The position numbers were made by a program, and so were the translations under genes. Of a stretch of DNA of 64,000 nt, positions 9,921-26,494 are shown one piece after another (position 1 is the stretch's first letter; each line of letters opens with the position of its first letter). Source of the stretch: Mucilaginibacter gossypii (GTDB lineage: Bacteria; Bacteroidota; Bacteroidia; Sphingobacteriales; Sphingobacteriaceae). The notes beneath the pieces are model-generated. The model ran no database searches. It saw only the letters and a list, made by a program, of their open reading frames with translations, and had not been told where the DNA came from. The stretch lies in contig NZ_FNCG01000001.1 in NCBI RefSeq assembly GCF_900100945.1, positions 248,001 through 312,000 on the forward strand. The letters run 5' to 3'.

Positions 9921-10175
9921 CTACTCCGCTCCCAGATAATCCGCCTGATCAGACGATGACAGGTCGTTATCATCCCATAAACCGGGGGTATCTATATCCC
10001 CTTCCAAATAGGGCTCGCTGTCTTCGGCACAAGGCATGGCCTCATCAAGGTTAATGTCTGACCTGCCCACACGACCCTTGCCTGATGTTTTGATATCCCA
10101 TATATCAGGGATATTTCCACTGTCTTCTTCAGGGGTTGGGGTTTCGTCAGGATCTGGAAATTGGCTCATAATCAA
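9921..10175 (-). CDS. Small acidic hypothetical protein
   Basis: An 84-aa protein very rich in Asp and Glu (DPDETPTPEEDSG, EDSEPYLEGDIDTPG), with two related aromatic patches, DIWDIK and GLWDDND. No signal or membrane segment. A start two codons later (MSQFPDP) is equally possible. The stop abuts the stop of the convergent three-TM gene. I do not recognise a family; the composition suggests a disordered protein that binds a basic partner. The coding call rests on a biased, non-random composition and start context, so it is moderate. Confidence 0.5.
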   Translation of the reverse strand: MIMSQFPDPDETPTPEEDSGNIPDIWDIKTSGKGRVGRSDINLDEAMPCAEDSEPYLEGDIDTPGLWDDNDLSSSDQADYLGAE

Positions 10176-19268: not shown

Positions 19269-19691
19269 TTATGCAACCTTAAAGGATTGTTTGTAATAGT
19301 TGCAGGCAGGAGCAAAGAAGCTTAAATTGCATTGTGAGCAAAAGGCGTTTGCGACATCTGTATCTTTTTCAGTATTTGATTGAATAGTTGGGTTAGACTT
19401 TGGTTGTAATACTTTTGTCCTGTTAAAATTTGAGGGATAGACGCGCCTGGCTGTTGATGATGTCGCTAATGAACCTGTTTGAGCTCCATATTCACTAACA
19501 AGTAATTGAGGGGATATCCGCGAAATAGAGTGGGAGGCTTGGTTGTATTTAAGTAACCGGTAATCTCTTCGGTCTGGAAGTTTGCTCTGAGGTCTTGGTA
19601 AAACTATCCCGTTGTCATAAGATTTATCCTGTAATAATGCGATTATACAAATCAGCATTATTATAAATGTGCTAATAAAGTATTCCATCAC
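19269..19691 (-). CDS. Hypothetical protein with one N-terminal membrane helix and C-terminal cysteines
   Basis: I do not recognise this 140-aa protein. It has one hydrophobic helix at residues 4-20 (YFISTFIIMLICIIALL), a polar, Ser/Arg/Asn-rich middle with low structure, and a C-terminal CSQCNLSFFAPACNYY cluster that could bind metal or form disulphides. Its start is about 110 bp from a repeated upstream element shared with the region near 22.7 kb, and it is divergent from the response regulator. The coding call is moderate because of the low-complexity middle. Confidence 0.5.
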   Translation of the reverse strand: MMEYFISTFIIMLICIIALLQDKSYDNGIVLPRPQSKLPDRRDYRLLKYNQASHSISRISPQLLVSEYGAQTGSLATSSTARRVYPSNFNRTKVLQPKSNPTIQSNTEKDTDVANAFCSQCNLSFFAPACNYYKQSFKVA

Positions 19692-19799: not shown

Positions 19800-19855
19800 T
19801 AGAACAATTTTATGAACAGAGGCTGGGATGCACAATACAAATCAGTTGGTATTTT
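19800..19855 (+). promoter_or_regulatory. Upstream repeat element, copy A (before response regulator)
   Basis: This stretch shares ACAATTTTAT, then AGAGGC, then CACAATACAAA-n-CAGTTGGTATTTT with a second copy at 22683-22738. The two copies align over about 55 bp with only small indels and a few mismatches. It ends 42 bp before the response regulator start and also faces the divergent gene at 19691. It may be a promoter-proximal binding site for the LuxR-type regulator. Confidence 0.55.
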
Positions 19856-19897
19856 ATGAAATAAAGATAAAATATAGATTTACAGTGAATTTATTAT

Positions 19898-20539
19898 ATG
19901 GAAAGCACCGTGGAAAAACTATCAGTAATAATAGCAGATGACCATACTTTATTTATAAACGGCTTACACATGTTGTTGCAGGGAGAGCCAGATATAGAGG
20001 TAATGAGCGTTGCAGCAAACGGTAAGGAATTATTACATTTGTTACACACCCAAACACCCAACCTCATATTACTTGATATCAATATGCCGGGTATGAACGG
20101 GTTCGACGTACTTAAGCGCATAAAGGATTACTATCCTAAAGTTAAGGTAATCATGCTTTCTACATATAATGAGGAGCACCTCATTGAAAAAGCAAAGGCT
20201 GAAGGAGCCAGCGGCTACTTGTTCAAAAATGTCGGGAAGGCTGAACTATTACAGGTAATGCGCTCCGTAGCGCAAGGGCATCTGTGTTTTCCCTGCAAAC
20301 AGCCGGTTGTTAATTCCATGCCTAATGAACCGGATCCTTTTTTAAAGCAGTTCCAGCTTACTAAGCGGGAAACTGAACTTTTACAATTTATAAAACAGAA
20401 TTTTACCAACCAGCAAATGGCCGATCATCTTCACTTAAGTATTTATACTGTTGAAACACACCGTAAAAATATTATGCAAAAGCTTAATCTGAAAAATCCG
20501 GTTGAGCTTAACCGGTTTATAATGCAATATAACTTATAA
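19898..20539 (+). CDS. NarL/FixJ-type response regulator with LuxR HTH
   Basis: The 213-aa protein has a receiver domain (acidic pair at 14-15, phosphoacceptor D60 in LILLDINMPGMNG, lysine K110 in GYLFKN) and a C-terminal LuxR HTH (LTKRETELLQFI, then NQQMADHLHLSIYTVETHRKNIMQKL). It is the natural partner of the HisKA_3 kinase next to it. The two genes converge and overlap by 6 bp at their stop codons, rather than forming an operon. Upstream repeat copy A suggests autoregulation. Confidence 0.93.
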   Translation: MESTVEKLSVIIADDHTLFINGLHMLLQGEPDIEVMSVAANGKELLHLLHTQTPNLILLDINMPGMNGFDVLKRIKDYYPKVKVIMLSTYNEEHLIEKAKAEGASGYLFKNVGKAELLQVMRSVAQGHLCFPCKQPVVNSMPNEPDPFLKQFQLTKRETELLQFIKQNFTNQQMADHLHLSIYTVETHRKNIMQKLNLKNPVELNRFIMQYNL

Positions 20540-22306
20540 AGGTTTATTGGTGAGTGGGATATAAATAGAAACAAGTGTCCCCCTGTTAGGATGCGAATCA
20601 AATTCAACCCTGCCTTTTAAAAAATTTATCCGCGACATTAGATTGTTTAAGCCCATGCCTTTAAAAATATCAGGATTGGTTGCGTCAAAGCCTATGCCAT
20701 TATCTTCAATAGTGAGGCTGATGTTTTCATCGCTTCTTATAAGTGAAATGTCAACCCTGTCGGCATGAGCGTGCTTCATTACATTGTTTACACTTTCCTG
20801 TAATACCCGGTATAAAATGATCTCGATGGTATCGTCAAACGGCGAATCAAACCCCTGGCAAAAAAAGTTTATTGCAATATTATTGTTCTTGATATTCTCA
20901 ATAAATTGTTTAATTACTTGTGCTAACCCTGTTTTATGAAGTGCCCAAGGCATCATATTATGTGATATCGTTCTTACCTCTTTAAATCCATAGTCAACAA
21001 GGTTAATTGCTTTTTCAAAACGGGTTCTTTGCTCTTCATTTATGAAAGGTAATTCACTGCCTATAACTGACAGGTTTATTTTTGCCGCCGATATTATTTG
21101 GCTCACACTATCATGTAAATCCCTGGCAATTCTTTGTCTTTCACTTTCCTCAGCCGCAATTATAGCCTGCATTGCCATATTGCGCTGTTTTAGCTTGTTT
21201 TGTTTATAATAAAAAAAGCCTGTAAAGAACATTAAAAGTATAAAAACACAGATACCCGCCATCCAGTAATTACGCTTTGTTATTTCAAATTGCTGTTGCA
21301 GTACCTGATCTTCACGTTGTTTTATTTCGTATTTTGCCTGTAGTTCATCAATGGTGCTGTTGCCTGAGGTTTTAATTGCTGCATGCTTTTTTAAGTAAAT
21401 CAGCGATTGCTTATAGTCGCCCAATTGCTCATACAAATCAGCTATTTCATTTGTGGCGCTTCTTTGCATATCTGCATAATTTATTTGTGTGGCAAACTGA
21501 AGGCTGTTTTTTAATGCATCGAGAGATTGTAGATATAACCGTTTGTTTTTATACAATACGCCAAGGTTAAAATAGTTAATTGAAAGCGCAAGGGTATCAT
21601 TTAATGATTTTTTGACATCGATGGTTTTTAAAATTTCCTGTTCTGAGTCGTTTGGTTTAATACTTCCCATAACATCCCCCATAAATTTATGGCTGTATGC
21701 TTCAGAGGTGTTTTCATTTGTTTGCCGGGCAAGGTTTAAAGAGTCTTTTATGTCGAAAGCCTGCCTGGAGTAATTTAAGGCCTCCCGGTAATTGTTTTTT
21801 GCCTCATATAACGTCGCAGCCAGGTTTAAGGCTTCTGTCAATTCTGTACGGTCACCGGTTTTTGGGGCATATGAAATTGCCAGCATGCAAAATTCAAGCG
21901 CTTTTTTATGATTTTTTAATTTTACATACGCTTTCGCTAACCTGTTGTAACCATCGGTTAAAATGTACTGTTGATTTATTTTGTTGAGTGCAACGGCGGC
22001 AATGTTGTAATAATATGATGCGGAATCATATTGATTAGTTTGGAAATAAGCTTCTCCTAAAGTTTGCGATAGTAAAGTAATTGCTTTTTTATTGTTTAGC
22101 TTATGTGCAAGGTTCAGTCCTTCTTTTGCAACAATGATGGTTTTGGTCGGATTTGTTTCAGCCGCATAGTTGGCAATCTGAGTAGCGGCGGTTAAGCGTT
22201 TTTGTGTGGGTGATTTGCTGAAAACAACCTTTTTTAAACTATCAATATTTTGACCGCAACACGGAATTACAGCCAAAATAAGCAGAAAAAACAAAGGGTA
22301 TTTCAT
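20534..22306 (-). CDS. TPR-containing HisKA_3 sensor histidine kinase
   Basis: I choose the ATG at 22306, which gives a 590-aa protein opening with a signal peptide (MKYPLFFLLILAVIPCCGQ); the longer frame adds 17 unlikely residues. Periplasmic TPR repeats cover about 30-330 (for example DSASYYYNIAAVAL and YKQSLIYLKKHAAI), one membrane helix follows at about 350-370, then a HisKA_3 dimerisation helix with H398 in RIARDLHDSVSQ, and an HATPase with DNGIGFD. It phosphorylates the convergent LuxR-type regulator. The sensed signal is unknown. Confidence 0.92.
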   Translation of the reverse strand: MKYPLFFLLILAVIPCCGQNIDSLKKVVFSKSPTQKRLTAATQIANYAAETNPTKTIIVAKEGLNLAHKLNNKKAITLLSQTLGEAYFQTNQYDSASYYYNIAAVALNKINQQYILTDGYNRLAKAYVKLKNHKKALEFCMLAISYAPKTGDRTELTEALNLAATLYEAKNNYREALNYSRQAFDIKDSLNLARQTNENTSEAYSHKFMGDVMGSIKPNDSEQEILKTIDVKKSLNDTLALSINYFNLGVLYKNKRLYLQSLDALKNSLQFATQINYADMQRSATNEIADLYEQLGDYKQSLIYLKKHAAIKTSGNSTIDELQAKYEIKQREDQVLQQQFEITKRNYWMAGICVFILLMFFTGFFYYKQNKLKQRNMAMQAIIAAEESERQRIARDLHDSVSQIISAAKINLSVIGSELPFINEEQRTRFEKAINLVDYGFKEVRTISHNMMPWALHKTGLAQVIKQFIENIKNNNIAINFFCQGFDSPFDDTIEIILYRVLQESVNNVMKHAHADRVDISLIRSDENISLTIEDNGIGFDATNPDIFKGMGLNNLMSRINFLKGRVEFDSHPNRGTLVSIYIPLTNKPL

Positions 22307-22396
22307 ATCCGGGTTTTTGGTCCCGGTTAAAGATAGTAATTTGATATTTATCAGCAAAAGTCGTTGGGCCTGGGGTTGTTACCGGTTAATGTGTTT

Positions 22397-22594
22397 TTAA
22401 AATCTGGATATGAATATTATTAAAGCAGATAATACGGCTAACACGAAAAACACAATTTGCCGTTGCCTGGCACTGATAATGTTGGGTATTTTGCCTGTTC
22501 CCTGCAATTTTTCGAGCTTAAATTTATACATAGCTGATAATCCCATAAAAGTTAGGGAAACAAAGCCCGCGAGGTAATTTAAAGTACTTTCCAT
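22397..22594 (-). CDS. Small two-TM membrane protein
   Basis: A 65-aa protein with two membrane helices (about 6-22 and 45-63) joined by a basic loop (KFKLEKLQGTGKIPNIISARQRQ). No family is recognised. It lies 90 bp upstream of the kinase on the same strand and its start faces repeat copy B. It could be an accessory or sensor-associated peptide of the two-component system, but that is only context. Confidence 0.55.
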   Translation of the reverse strand: MESTLNYLAGFVSLTFMGLSAMYKFKLEKLQGTGKIPNIISARQRQIVFFVLAVLSALIIFISRF

Positions 22595-23025
22595 GGTTTT
22601 TTAATTTAGATGAAACGCGATGAATTAATTTGTTCAAAACCATTTATGGCTTTGTTTTATATTATTTCACCATCGTGCTTGACAGTACAATTTTATAGAG
22701 AGGCCGAAATTCACACAATACAAAGCAGTTGGTATTTTGGAGTAACACCATAAAGCTTATTTTTACAGATGAAATATTGGAGGTAAGTATATCATGTAGA
22801 AACACTATTTAGTATTATACAGATAGCATATATTGGAAAGCCGTGTGCCGTAATCGATAAAAAGGACTAACTTTAATAATGATTTTGCAATATAATTCTA
22901 ACCTATACCTAAAATCATTATTGCTCATTAACAATCAATAAAAATTAAATTAATAAGCTATTATTCACCAAATAAAACTGACTGATTGTATTGAAAGCAA
23001 TCGCTTTCTGCATAAAGATAATTAA
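22595..23025. other. Intergenic region with repeat element copy B
   Basis: These 431 bp hold repeat copy B near the left side and the presumed leader of the proline-rich gene on the right. No further frame, hairpin or tRNA is visible. A long AT-rich leader precedes the ATG at 23026. Confidence 0.5.
22683..22738 (+). promoter_or_regulatory. Upstream repeat element, copy B (before proline-rich gene)
   Basis: This is the second copy of the element at 19800-19855. The core CACAATACAAAGCAGTTGGTA (22714-22734) differs by one base from copy A, and both continue with TTTT. Both copies sit between a minus-strand small membrane protein gene and a plus-strand gene, in the same orientation. Copy B lies 288 bp before the proline-rich gene and 89 bp from the start of the two-TM gene. 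A TTTTTACAG-like match also follows both copies. Confidence 0.55.
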
Positions 23026-23736
23026 ATGGAAATGTCATACATCGTCCAAAAAAAGGAGAGAAACCGGCGACTCAACAGCCTAATACCATGCTTTATTTGG
23101 TTATTAGTTGCCTGGGGGGGCTTAAGTAATACTATGGCCCAGAGCCGCAATAATCAGTCGGACTGGAACGTGCCGCCGCCATTAACCCCAGGTACAATTA
23201 CCAAAGGAAACACCCATGGCAGTGGTTCGGCGGGTAAGCCGATTATACTTACGCTTACGGATATCCCGGTAATTGCTCAGCCCTTTGTTTCAGCAACTCA
23301 AATGCCTGTGCTGGCTGCAGTTGGCTCAACGCCGCCTGTGGTTGATGCACCCGACCAACCCGATGTTAATGGTGCAACTGCGGGGTTACCTGAAATTCCA
23401 TCACCTGAAGCGCCAGAAGCTCCGCATTTGCCAAAGCAAACAATGCAGGACCTGCAGTTTTCAGCTGTTATAGACCTCCCTTTGCCAGAATCGCCGGAAT
23501 TGCCGCCAGCGCCTGTTGAGCCAACCGTATCAGGCCAGGTGAATATTATAAAAGGCCCCATTCCGATAATGCCCGATATAACAAGTACGGTACCGCTTTT
23601 ACAGCCTTCCGAAAATTTTACACCCTGGTCTATCCCGGAAATTCCCGAAAGCGAGAGCTTTAAAATGATATCGCCTGGGGGAACGAAGGATGATAAGTTA
23701 AAAGGCAAACCCCAATCAAACAGGAAAAAACACTAA
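23026..23736 (+). CDS. Proline-rich exported low-complexity protein
   Basis: The 236-aa protein starts with a basic N-terminus and a signal-like helix (SLIPCFIWLLVAWGGLSNTMAQ). The mature part is dominated by Pro, Glu, Ala and Ile in irregular repeats such as LPEIPSPEAPEAPHLP and LPLPESPELPPAPVEP, and ends in a lysine-rich tail (DDKLKGKPQSNRKKH). It has no recognised domain; it is likely an extended periplasmic or surface spacer. The next gene, 49 bp downstream, is also exported and probably its operon partner. Repeat copy B upstream hints at control by the nearby two-component system. Confidence 0.65.
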   Translation: MEMSYIVQKKERNRRLNSLIPCFIWLLVAWGGLSNTMAQSRNNQSDWNVPPPLTPGTITKGNTHGSGSAGKPIILTLTDIPVIAQPFVSATQMPVLAAVGSTPPVVDAPDQPDVNGATAGLPEIPSPEAPEAPHLPKQTMQDLQFSAVIDLPLPESPELPPAPVEPTVSGQVNIIKGPIPIMPDITSTVPLLQPSENFTPWSIPEIPESESFKMISPGGTKDDKLKGKPQSNRKKH

Positions 23737-23785: not shown

Positions 23786-24586
23786 ATGAAAAGTACCCCA
23801 ATTGAGTTAAAATATATATTTGTTATAATATTAGCTTTTGCGAGCGGTGTTACCTATGCCCAGGGCAGATTTAAACAGGGAGATGAGTTTCAAAGGCAGG
23901 TAAATACAAAGTCAAATTGTGTTTTACAGCGCGGCAGCCAAACTTTGCGTGTTGGTTCGGTTTCAATAGTTGTTAAAACCTACAAGGTAACCGATGCTTC
24001 TGAAAGGGGGGCCTCTTTTACTATTACTACTGATAAGCTTATCGATACCATAAATGCAATGAACCAGGACCTGGTATATAACTCAGGTAAACCTGCCGAC
24101 CCAAATTCTGTTATCCAGGTTGGTTTGCAGAAGATGTTCCATAATCAATCGATAGTTTCAGTAAACAACAAAGGCGAGATCCTGAATTTAAAACGCCCGG
24201 CTGTTGCCAATGATACACTGTTATCTTTTGCCGGCATCCAGCCCGAACGGCTGTCGCCAGGGACTACAATACAGTTAATGGTTGATTTTCCGGTTGGCAT
24301 CACACTTAAAAAGGGCTATTCATGGAAGGTTACTACTTCATCGGCCGAAACCAACTATACAGTTTATGCTATAAGCAGCACAACTACTGTTGTTACTTAT
24401 AAAACTTCGGTTTTAGGCGGTAGCTTAAATAGCCGGATAAACGGATCAATACTCATAGATAACAACACCGGGGTTATTTTAAAACGCTATTCGCAAAGCG
24501 TTTCTACTGGCTATGAAATGGTAAATGGAATAGTTTACACCGCCACCCGCCGTACTGCAGTTACGGAGATCTGTAATAAAAAATAG
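23786..24586 (+). CDS. Exported hypothetical protein, operon partner of the proline-rich protein
   Basis: A 266-aa protein with a signal peptide ending at about residue 25 (YAQG). The mature part is beta-rich (LRVGSVSIVVKTYKVTDA, INGSILIDNNTGVILKRYSQSVS) and resembles DUF6263-like periplasmic proteins in layout, though I cannot assign it firmly. It lacks catalytic motifs and has two cysteines, one near each end (C47-region and C263-region). It follows the proline-rich gene by 49 bp in the same direction. Confidence 0.65.
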   Translation: MKSTPIELKYIFVIILAFASGVTYAQGRFKQGDEFQRQVNTKSNCVLQRGSQTLRVGSVSIVVKTYKVTDASERGASFTITTDKLIDTINAMNQDLVYNSGKPADPNSVIQVGLQKMFHNQSIVSVNNKGEILNLKRPAVANDTLLSFAGIQPERLSPGTTIQLMVDFPVGITLKKGYSWKVTTSSAETNYTVYAISSTTTVVTYKTSVLGGSLNSRINGSILIDNNTGVILKRYSQSVSTGYEMVNGIVYTATRRTAVTEICNKK

Positions 24587-26005: not shown

Positions 26006-26494
26006 TTAAAGCAAATGATTGGTTTCTTTGATAATATCCATTACAAAAGTGCTTTTTGAGTGGCCAATACCCTTTACTTCGCTTAGCTTATTTACAAAAA
26101 ACGAATGGTAACTATCCATACTTTCAGAGACAATTTTGAGCATAAAATCAAAATCGCCCGATATGTTATAGCATTCTATCACTTCGTCAAATTCCAGTAC
26201 AGCGTTAATAAAATCGGCACCTGCTTTGCGGCTATGTTCGCGCAGGGTTACCATGCAAATCACCATGATACGTTTGTTCAGCATCCGCTTATCTAAAATG
26301 GCGGTATAGCTTTTAATAACCCCCGCTTTTTCGAGGCGTTTAATGCGTTCATGTGCGGGCGTAGGGCTTAGGTTGATTTTAACGGCAATTTCCCGCACGG
26401 TAAGCTTGGCATTCCGTTCAACCAGCCGTAATATTTCGTAATCTTTTTCATCAAGATGGATGCCGGCTTTTTCTTGTTCTGTTTGTGGGGCCAT
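26006..26494 (-). CDS. Lrp/AsnC-family transcriptional regulator
   Basis: The 162-aa protein has the N-terminal winged HTH (LDEKDYEILRLVERNAKLTVREIAVKINLSPTPAHERIKRLEKAGVI) and the C-terminal RAM ligand domain (MVTLREHSRKAGADF, GDFDFMLKIV). Such regulators respond to amino acids. It is divergent from an MFS exporter 125 bp away, a standard arrangement for a regulator and the amino-acid or drug exporter that it controls. Confidence 0.92.
   Translation of the reverse strand: MAPQTEQEKAGIHLDEKDYEILRLVERNAKLTVREIAVKINLSPTPAHERIKRLEKAGVIKSYTAILDKRMLNKRIMVICMVTLREHSRKAGADFINAVLEFDEVIECYNISGDFDFMLKIVSESMDSYHSFFVNKLSEVKGIGHSKSTFVMDIIKETNHLL

Follow-up and report, generated by a model that had tools for sequence, protein, structure and literature searches.

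In a 64,000-nucleotide (nt) window of the Mucilaginibacter gossypii genome, two near-identical segments flank the genes for a NarL/LuxR-type response regulator (RR) and a sensor histidine kinase with tetratricopeptide repeats (TPR), here called HK. We conclude that the inverted repeat at the heart of each segment is very likely the operator of RR, set within divergent promoters, a judgement that includes the variant in which RR acts as a repressor. Binding by RR is predicted from sequence, geometry, conservation and co-occurrence, and that RR would activate these promoters is less certain than the identity of the operator. The element very probably marks a small Mucilaginibacter gene set consisting of the regulator, the kinase and operons for apparently exported proteins, one of them proline-rich. 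The regulon is new and the operator is of a kind already known.

An inverted repeat midway between predicted divergent promoters

The initial annotation had described two shared segments on either side of the two-component genes and had suggested that they represent the operator of this regulator or a shared promoter. Both segments were confirmed as non-coding copies in the same orientation, 2.9 kb apart. Copy 1 lies between M140 (minus strand) and the regulator gene (plus strand), and copy 2 between the M65-kinase genes (minus strand) and the gene for a proline-rich protein, P, which is followed by D (plus strand). The 25-bp core, CACAATACAAA-n-CAGTTGGTATTTT, at 19831-19855 and 22714-22738, is an inverted repeat, AATACAAA-N4-TTGGTATT. 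A second shared part, ACAATTTTAT (19804-19813 in copy 1 and 22687-22696 in copy 2), is conserved among relatives and fits the -7 box of the minus-strand (left) promoter. The third part that had been proposed, AGAGGC (19818-19823 and 22699-22704), was rejected: it falls in a variable spacer and is found in only 4 of 64 spacers (2/25 at regulator sites, 2/21 at copy-2-type sites and 0/18 at the others). In the alignment of these 64 sites on the repeat, which omits four extra exact sites, a two-mismatch site in genome G064 and repeats of the C44 type described below, the repeat and the boxes are conserved and the spacers between them have diverged. TAC-N10-GTA is present in all 64 sites (the selection pattern itself nearly fixes those bases), and spans sixteen bases end to end, which corresponds to a 7-2-7 spacing. 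The half-sites read TACAAA or TACCAA and do not match NarL's own consensus, TACYYMT. The predicted operators and promoter boxes are:

19834..19853, no strand: operator copy 1 (predicted), inverted repeat AATACAAATCAGTTGGTATT (TAC-N10-GTA), kept 5' of the regulator in 25/25 genomes
22717..22736, no strand: operator copy 2 (predicted), inverted repeat AATACAAAGCAGTTGGTATT
19805..19812, minus strand: -7-like box TAAAATTG of the promoter toward M140, 22 bp from the repeat, predicted start ~19800
19875..19882, plus strand: -7-like box TAGATTTA of the RR promoter, 22 bp from the repeat, predicted start ~19887
22688..22695, minus strand: -7-like box TAAAATTG of the M65-HK promoter, predicted start ~22683
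22758..22765, plus strand: -7-like box TATTTTTA of the P-D operon promoter, predicted start ~22770, with a 256-nt leader

The suggestion of a shared promoter also held, in that each copy carries two divergent -7-like boxes at equal spacing, at +22 from the repeat on both sides. When the pattern TAnnnTT was scored in the aligned sites, its start counted 22 bp beyond the repeat, a box occurred at exactly +22 in 102 of 110 promoter-side flanks, compared with a background of 5 in 4840 positions. For regulator-type sites this was the case on the regulator side in 22/25 and on the opposite side in 23/25; for copy-2-type sites, on the P/B side in 18/21 and on the kinase side in 21/21; and for separate B-P-D operons (B being a gene ahead of P and D), on the B side in 18/18, with none at 22 on the far side. 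The boxes are TAnnTTTG-like, with the last base often A, or consist of TAAAATTG. The Bacteroidota -7 box TAnnTTTG lies at -12 to -5 according to PMC9723704, and this placement puts the repeat at -53 to -34, centred at -43.5, relative to both predicted starts. The predicted promoters would not transcribe the repeat, which argues for an element acting at the DNA rather than the RNA level.

Another conserved promoter-like stretch, ATAAAAA-N3-TTAACTTTA, lies at 22856-22875 in the leader between the operator promoter and P. With up to two mismatches it is found in 15/16 P leaders, similar stretches precede B in some other operons, and matches of this type in the M. gossypii genome are not above the control (14 versus 18).

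Three copies in the M. gossypii genome

The M. gossypii assembly (7.1 Mb, 45 contigs) was searched with the reversed pattern as a control. Allowing up to three mismatches, the 25-mer gave three matches genome-wide and none in the control. All three copies stand upstream of genes, and the many scattered copies that would have marked a mobile repeat were not seen. The third copy, beyond the window at C32:191288, lies 5' of a paralogous B-P-D operon encoding B (289 aa), a P protein that shares the SRNNQSDWNVPPP stretch, and a homologue of D. A composite of the repeat and the box at +22 had exactly five zero-mismatch matches, two at each window copy (one per direction at copy 1 and at copy 2) and a single one at the third site; with up to three mismatches, 48 matches were obtained versus 28 in the control. 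The regulon proposed at the outset, comprising the proline-rich operon and two small membrane proteins, is retained and now also takes in the regulator, its kinase and the third operon.

Weak matches to the repeat, with up to three mismatches, numbered 169 versus 185 in the control, and few were inspected. Those at C21 (three places), C31, C43 and C32:208666 were rejected, as they lie within coding sequence or by unrelated genes. A perfect repeat, AATACCAAGTAGTTGGTATT, at C44:47893 was excluded: it is located just past the stop codon of a nucleoside-hydrolase-like gene and has no full box at +22. Among 60 relative genomes, 4 contain a perfect 20-bp repeat of this kind, which adjoins a nucleoside-hydrolase-like gene in all three fully readable neighbourhoods; at L100:3994-4013 it likewise has no full promoter box at +22.

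The site tracks the two-component system within the genus

In a search of 149 genomes of the genus (thresholds: regulator, E<=1e-70; kinase, E<=1e-100; D homologue, E<=1e-6), the regulator was found in 25, the kinase in 26, a D homologue in 33 and an exact AATACAAANNANTTNGTATT site in 23. All 23 genomes with an exact site are among the 26 with the kinase, and an exact site occurs in 0/123 genomes without the system, consistent with the initial assignment of the operator to this regulator. Fisher's test of regulator against exact site gave 5e-22, a value to be read knowing that the genomes are related and the draws not independent; the reversed-pattern control matched in 5/149 genomes. In G005, which has the kinase and no listed regulator, the C-terminal stretch of the regulator is encoded at the contig start.

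Positions were surveyed with the pattern AATACNAANNNNTTNGTATT. A site was located 5' of the regulator in each of the 25 genomes, between the M65-kinase genes and P or B-P-D in 21, and 5' of separate B-P-D operons in 18, two of these with one mismatch. The repeat occupies the same relative position in five relative loci, and the orthologous contigs include those of M. kameinonensis SCK and Mucilaginibacter sp. OK283. As for D itself, 39 of the 42 D loci in genomes with the system have a site with at most one mismatch, or 40 if the G064 operon is counted, whose two-mismatch site has a box at +22; no site was found at two diverged extra D copies (G077 and G067). Seven genomes have a D homologue without the system, and a site with no more than one mismatch is absent from all six testable operons among them (the G113 operon starts off its contig). 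Across the eight loci that were inspected, namely these six and the G077 and G067 extras, the best matches have 2-4 mismatches, and both two-mismatch ones lie inside long open frames.

The exact sites form 62 rows, corresponding to 55 distinct places, of which 51 adjoin RR, HK or P-D genes. The remaining four, all with a box-like sequence at +22, lie by a lipoprotein-like gene (G067) and by genes for 61-64-aa CxxC proteins (two in G092, one in G127). In G067 (L162:3553) the exact site, with TAACTTTA at +22, stands ahead of a 412-aa lipoprotein-like gene. In G092 (L174:3534-3918), where two copies of the repeat are 365 bp apart, and in G127 (L180:3519), the repeat lies 5' of tandem genes whose 61-64-aa CxxC products are zinc-ribbon-like.

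Sites near regulator relatives outside the genus

We also inspected 77 other loci around relatives of the regulator, one of which (L278) is a distant paralogue in another Mucilaginibacter, and scored sites with at most one mismatch between -2300 and +800 of the regulator start. Loci with a site numbered 6/19 at a regulator identity of at least 44%, 2/7 at 38-43% and 0/51 below, compared with 0.04, 0.01 and 0.09 matches expected, respectively. A box at 21-23 bp was present on at least one side in seven of the eight loci with a site, in five of those at exactly 22; the outside-genus loci with both site and box include that of Dyadobacter luteus (L216), which carries TACCTTTG. Four sites lie ~1.9-2.0 kb 5' of the regulator, a distance that would fit the beginning of a kinase-regulator pair, and the L212 site follows the regulator. 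M65, M140, B and D were not found in the outside-genus loci where the repeat recurs near RR relatives. We consider that this recurrence, together with a 7-2-7 geometry that fits a NarL-family protein, further supports the predicted operator.

At distances of 2-4 kb beyond the regulator, L212, L223, L225, L229, L215, L217, L219 and L226 hold more such repeats (0-1 mismatch), some at matching places across genomes, for example at about position 10018 in the Chitinophaga loci.

Genes of the locus and their products

The genes at the window locus are:

19269..19691, minus strand: M140, small protein whose N-terminus looks membrane-like by eye, without matches in Pfam or NCBIfam
19898..20539, plus strand: RR, NarL/LuxR-type response regulator with Response_reg and GerE domains
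20534..22327, minus strand: HK, TPR-containing sensor histidine kinase with TPR, HisKA_3 and HATPase_c domains, convergent with RR
22397..22594, minus strand: M65, small membrane-like protein, first gene ahead of HK
23026..23736, plus strand: P, proline-rich, carrying the motif SDWNVPPP and a start that resembles a signal peptide by eye
23786..24586, plus strand: D, a distant relative of DUF6263 whose start resembles a signal peptide by eye
26006-26494: AsnC/Lrp-type regulator gene, 3.3 kb from copy 2

RR has the receiver and GerE/LuxR domains of its class (PF00072, 7.7e-29; PF00196, 7.1e-16), and its best PDB sequence match is NarL. Homologues of M140 adjoin the regulator in 12/25 genomes. 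The P proteins have in common a signal-peptide-like start, judged by eye, and then, in nearly all, an SDW-and-proline stretch like SDWNVPPP; their tails diverge and are proline-rich or repeat-rich, with motifs such as PPIPPV and HMPPPT (window 23026-23736, L039:1908-2291 and homologues). DUF6263 (PF19777) is matched by D and by all 23 aligned members at E values up to 0.1, the best being 1e-9; the D protein of the window scores 15.1 bits, below the gathering cut-off of 26.7. B has no Pfam match, and an NCBIfam search returned no match for M65, M140, P, D or B. Profile searches of the PDB yielded nothing credible for D (best E 0.028) and no match for B, and a structure prediction of D from two sequences had a mean predicted local distance difference test score (pLDDT) of 34.5, too low to be of use. 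A literature search turned up no account of this regulator, its operator or the gene set (B, P, D), and DUF6263 appeared in no paper of the literature searched.

In 6 of 8 inspected loci, B-P-D operons lacking the operator adjoin other regulator-like genes (L203, L204, L205, L206, L208 and L209). Pfam confirmed an AraC-type helix-turn-helix (HTH) domain in L203, which L204 resembles, a receiver with a LuxR HTH and a weak kinase-like neighbour in L205, and a sigma-54 NtrC-type regulator in L206. L208 and L209 have large divergent proteins that are sensor-like by eye, the former without a Pfam match, and in L202 and L210 no regulator-like neighbour was recognised by eye. The B-P-D cassette seems to have been re-wired between species.

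Discussion

In the model that we favour, a dimer of RR (19898-20539) would bind the inverted repeat AATACMAA-N4-TTKGTATT, with a Bacteroidota-type -7 box (TAnnTTTA or TAAAATTG) 22 bp off on either side. Each copy would then constitute a bidirectional promoter module, in which the operator lies midway and the dimer sits near -43.5 of two divergent promoters. Phosphorylated by HK, RR would probably activate both promoters, as NarL does at ogt. Copy 1 would drive RR itself, in an autoregulatory fashion, and M140; copy 2 would drive M65-HK and P-D; and the third genomic copy would drive B-P-D, with positive feedback on regulator and kinase. The pairing of kinase and regulator, the phosphorylation, the signal and the transcription starts are likewise predicted.

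Several observations weigh against this model. The genomes are related, so that counts are not independent, and another regulator inherited with the system would leave the same pattern; an AsnC/Lrp-type regulator gene is also present at the locus (26006-26494). The recognition helix of RR, TVETHRKNI, is one that we take to be of a common type. The spacing is not absolute, with 8 of 110 flanks departing from +22, six of these eight having the box at 21 or 23. HK occurs without the site in 4/26 genomes (G092, G127, G015 and G108), in which M65 was also not detected. When one mismatch in the 20-mer was allowed in a search of 60 relatives, those lacking the system (53 genomes) gave 35 matches versus 28 in the control, compared with 37 versus 11 in the 7 genomes with it; given this near-control rate, one-mismatch matches alone mean little. 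Finally, 13 of the 19 outside-genus loci at an identity of at least 44% have no site in the stretch searched (some stretches being cut), which weighs against a uniform arrangement.

We regard it as rather unlikely that RR acts on the same operator as a repressor, one that keeps RNA polymerase out until its own state is altered by the kinase. A steric block is possible from the position of the repeat, which borders the core promoter on its upstream side (-53 to -34, taking the box as -12 to -5). Repressors, however, tolerate varied positions, and the near-invariant 22 bp to the -7 box suits an activator that touches polymerase; moreover, a NarL dimer positioned at -44.5 acts as an activator, and FimR has been reported to be one as well. 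Highly unlikely, in our estimate, is that the repeat serves as operator for another transcription factor, one that travels with the gene set. Several families of regulators have inverted repeats of this kind, and the AsnC/Lrp-type gene lies within 3.3 kb of copy 2; however, that gene accompanies the system in just 2 of eight 10-kb relative loci (some of which may end before it), those of the two relatives nearest by D identity (G147 and G152), whereas the site is 5' of RR in 25/25 genomes, exact sites occur in 0/123 genomes without the system, and the repeat recurs by RR relatives whose loci yielded no M65, M140, B or D.

There is only a slight chance that we are dealing with the promoter of an alternative sigma factor that has a palindromic upstream element and no operator. 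The fixed spacing between repeat and box would suit such a promoter, but the boxes differ little from the ordinary TAnnTTTG type, an inverted repeat of 20 bp that reads the same both ways is operator-like, and the distribution of the sites tracks the two-component system. As for a mobile or duplicated repeat, or chance, which the two near-identical copies 2.9 kb apart might have suggested, its likelihood is virtually nil: the 7.1-Mb genome holds three copies, the spacers have diverged around a conserved repeat and conserved boxes, the repeat keeps its relative position in five relative loci, and it lies 5' of RR in 25/25 genomes.

A broader idea, which we consider distinctly unlikely, is that of an autocrine loop in which the TPR domain of the kinase senses P, the exported SDWNVPPP protein. 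The two-component system would then be self-amplifying and dedicated to controlling an envelope module (B, P, D, M65 and M140), and B-P-D would have been re-wired to unrelated regulators in other species.

The analysis provides a base-resolved predicted operator, promoter architecture and regulon (five promoters at three sites) for an uncharacterised Bacteroidota LuxR-type regulator. It ties this regulator and its putative TPR kinase to conserved, apparently exported proteins, so that knocking out the regulator alone could show what these proteins do. With its exact symmetry, the two-way promoter would also be a clean natural test case of one dimer activating toward two polymerases.

Comparison with known systems

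RR resembles NarL of Escherichia coli, as known from the ogt and yeaR promoters, in being a receiver-GerE regulator with inverted elements in a 7-2-7 arrangement. NarL-type sites consist of two inverted 7-base elements 2 bp apart, and a NarL dimer at ogt acts, as an activator, from -44.5 (PMC7419079), just upstream of the core promoter and close to the ~-43.5 predicted here. In contrast to NarL, one site here would serve two divergent promoters symmetrically, with Bacteroidota -7 boxes. The half-sites, TACAAA/TACCAA, are unlike the NarL consensus. The site thus has NarL-like geometry and is not a NarL site.

For D, the related family DUF6263 (PF19777) is of unknown function by its own Pfam entry. 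For the system as a whole, FimS/FimR of Porphyromonas gingivalis likewise pairs a Bacteroidota TPR sensor kinase with a regulator that activates genes for surface structures by direct promoter binding. FimR is reported to bind and activate mfa1 (PMC1974823), and the periplasmic TPR domain of FimS has been suggested to bind a polypeptide (PMC11053733). HK residues 12-548 match the FimS model, but at 37.4 bits on NF053520, for which the cut-off is 600, HK is not FimS, and no fimbrial genes were recognised. FimS/FimR is nonetheless the nearest described analogue found.

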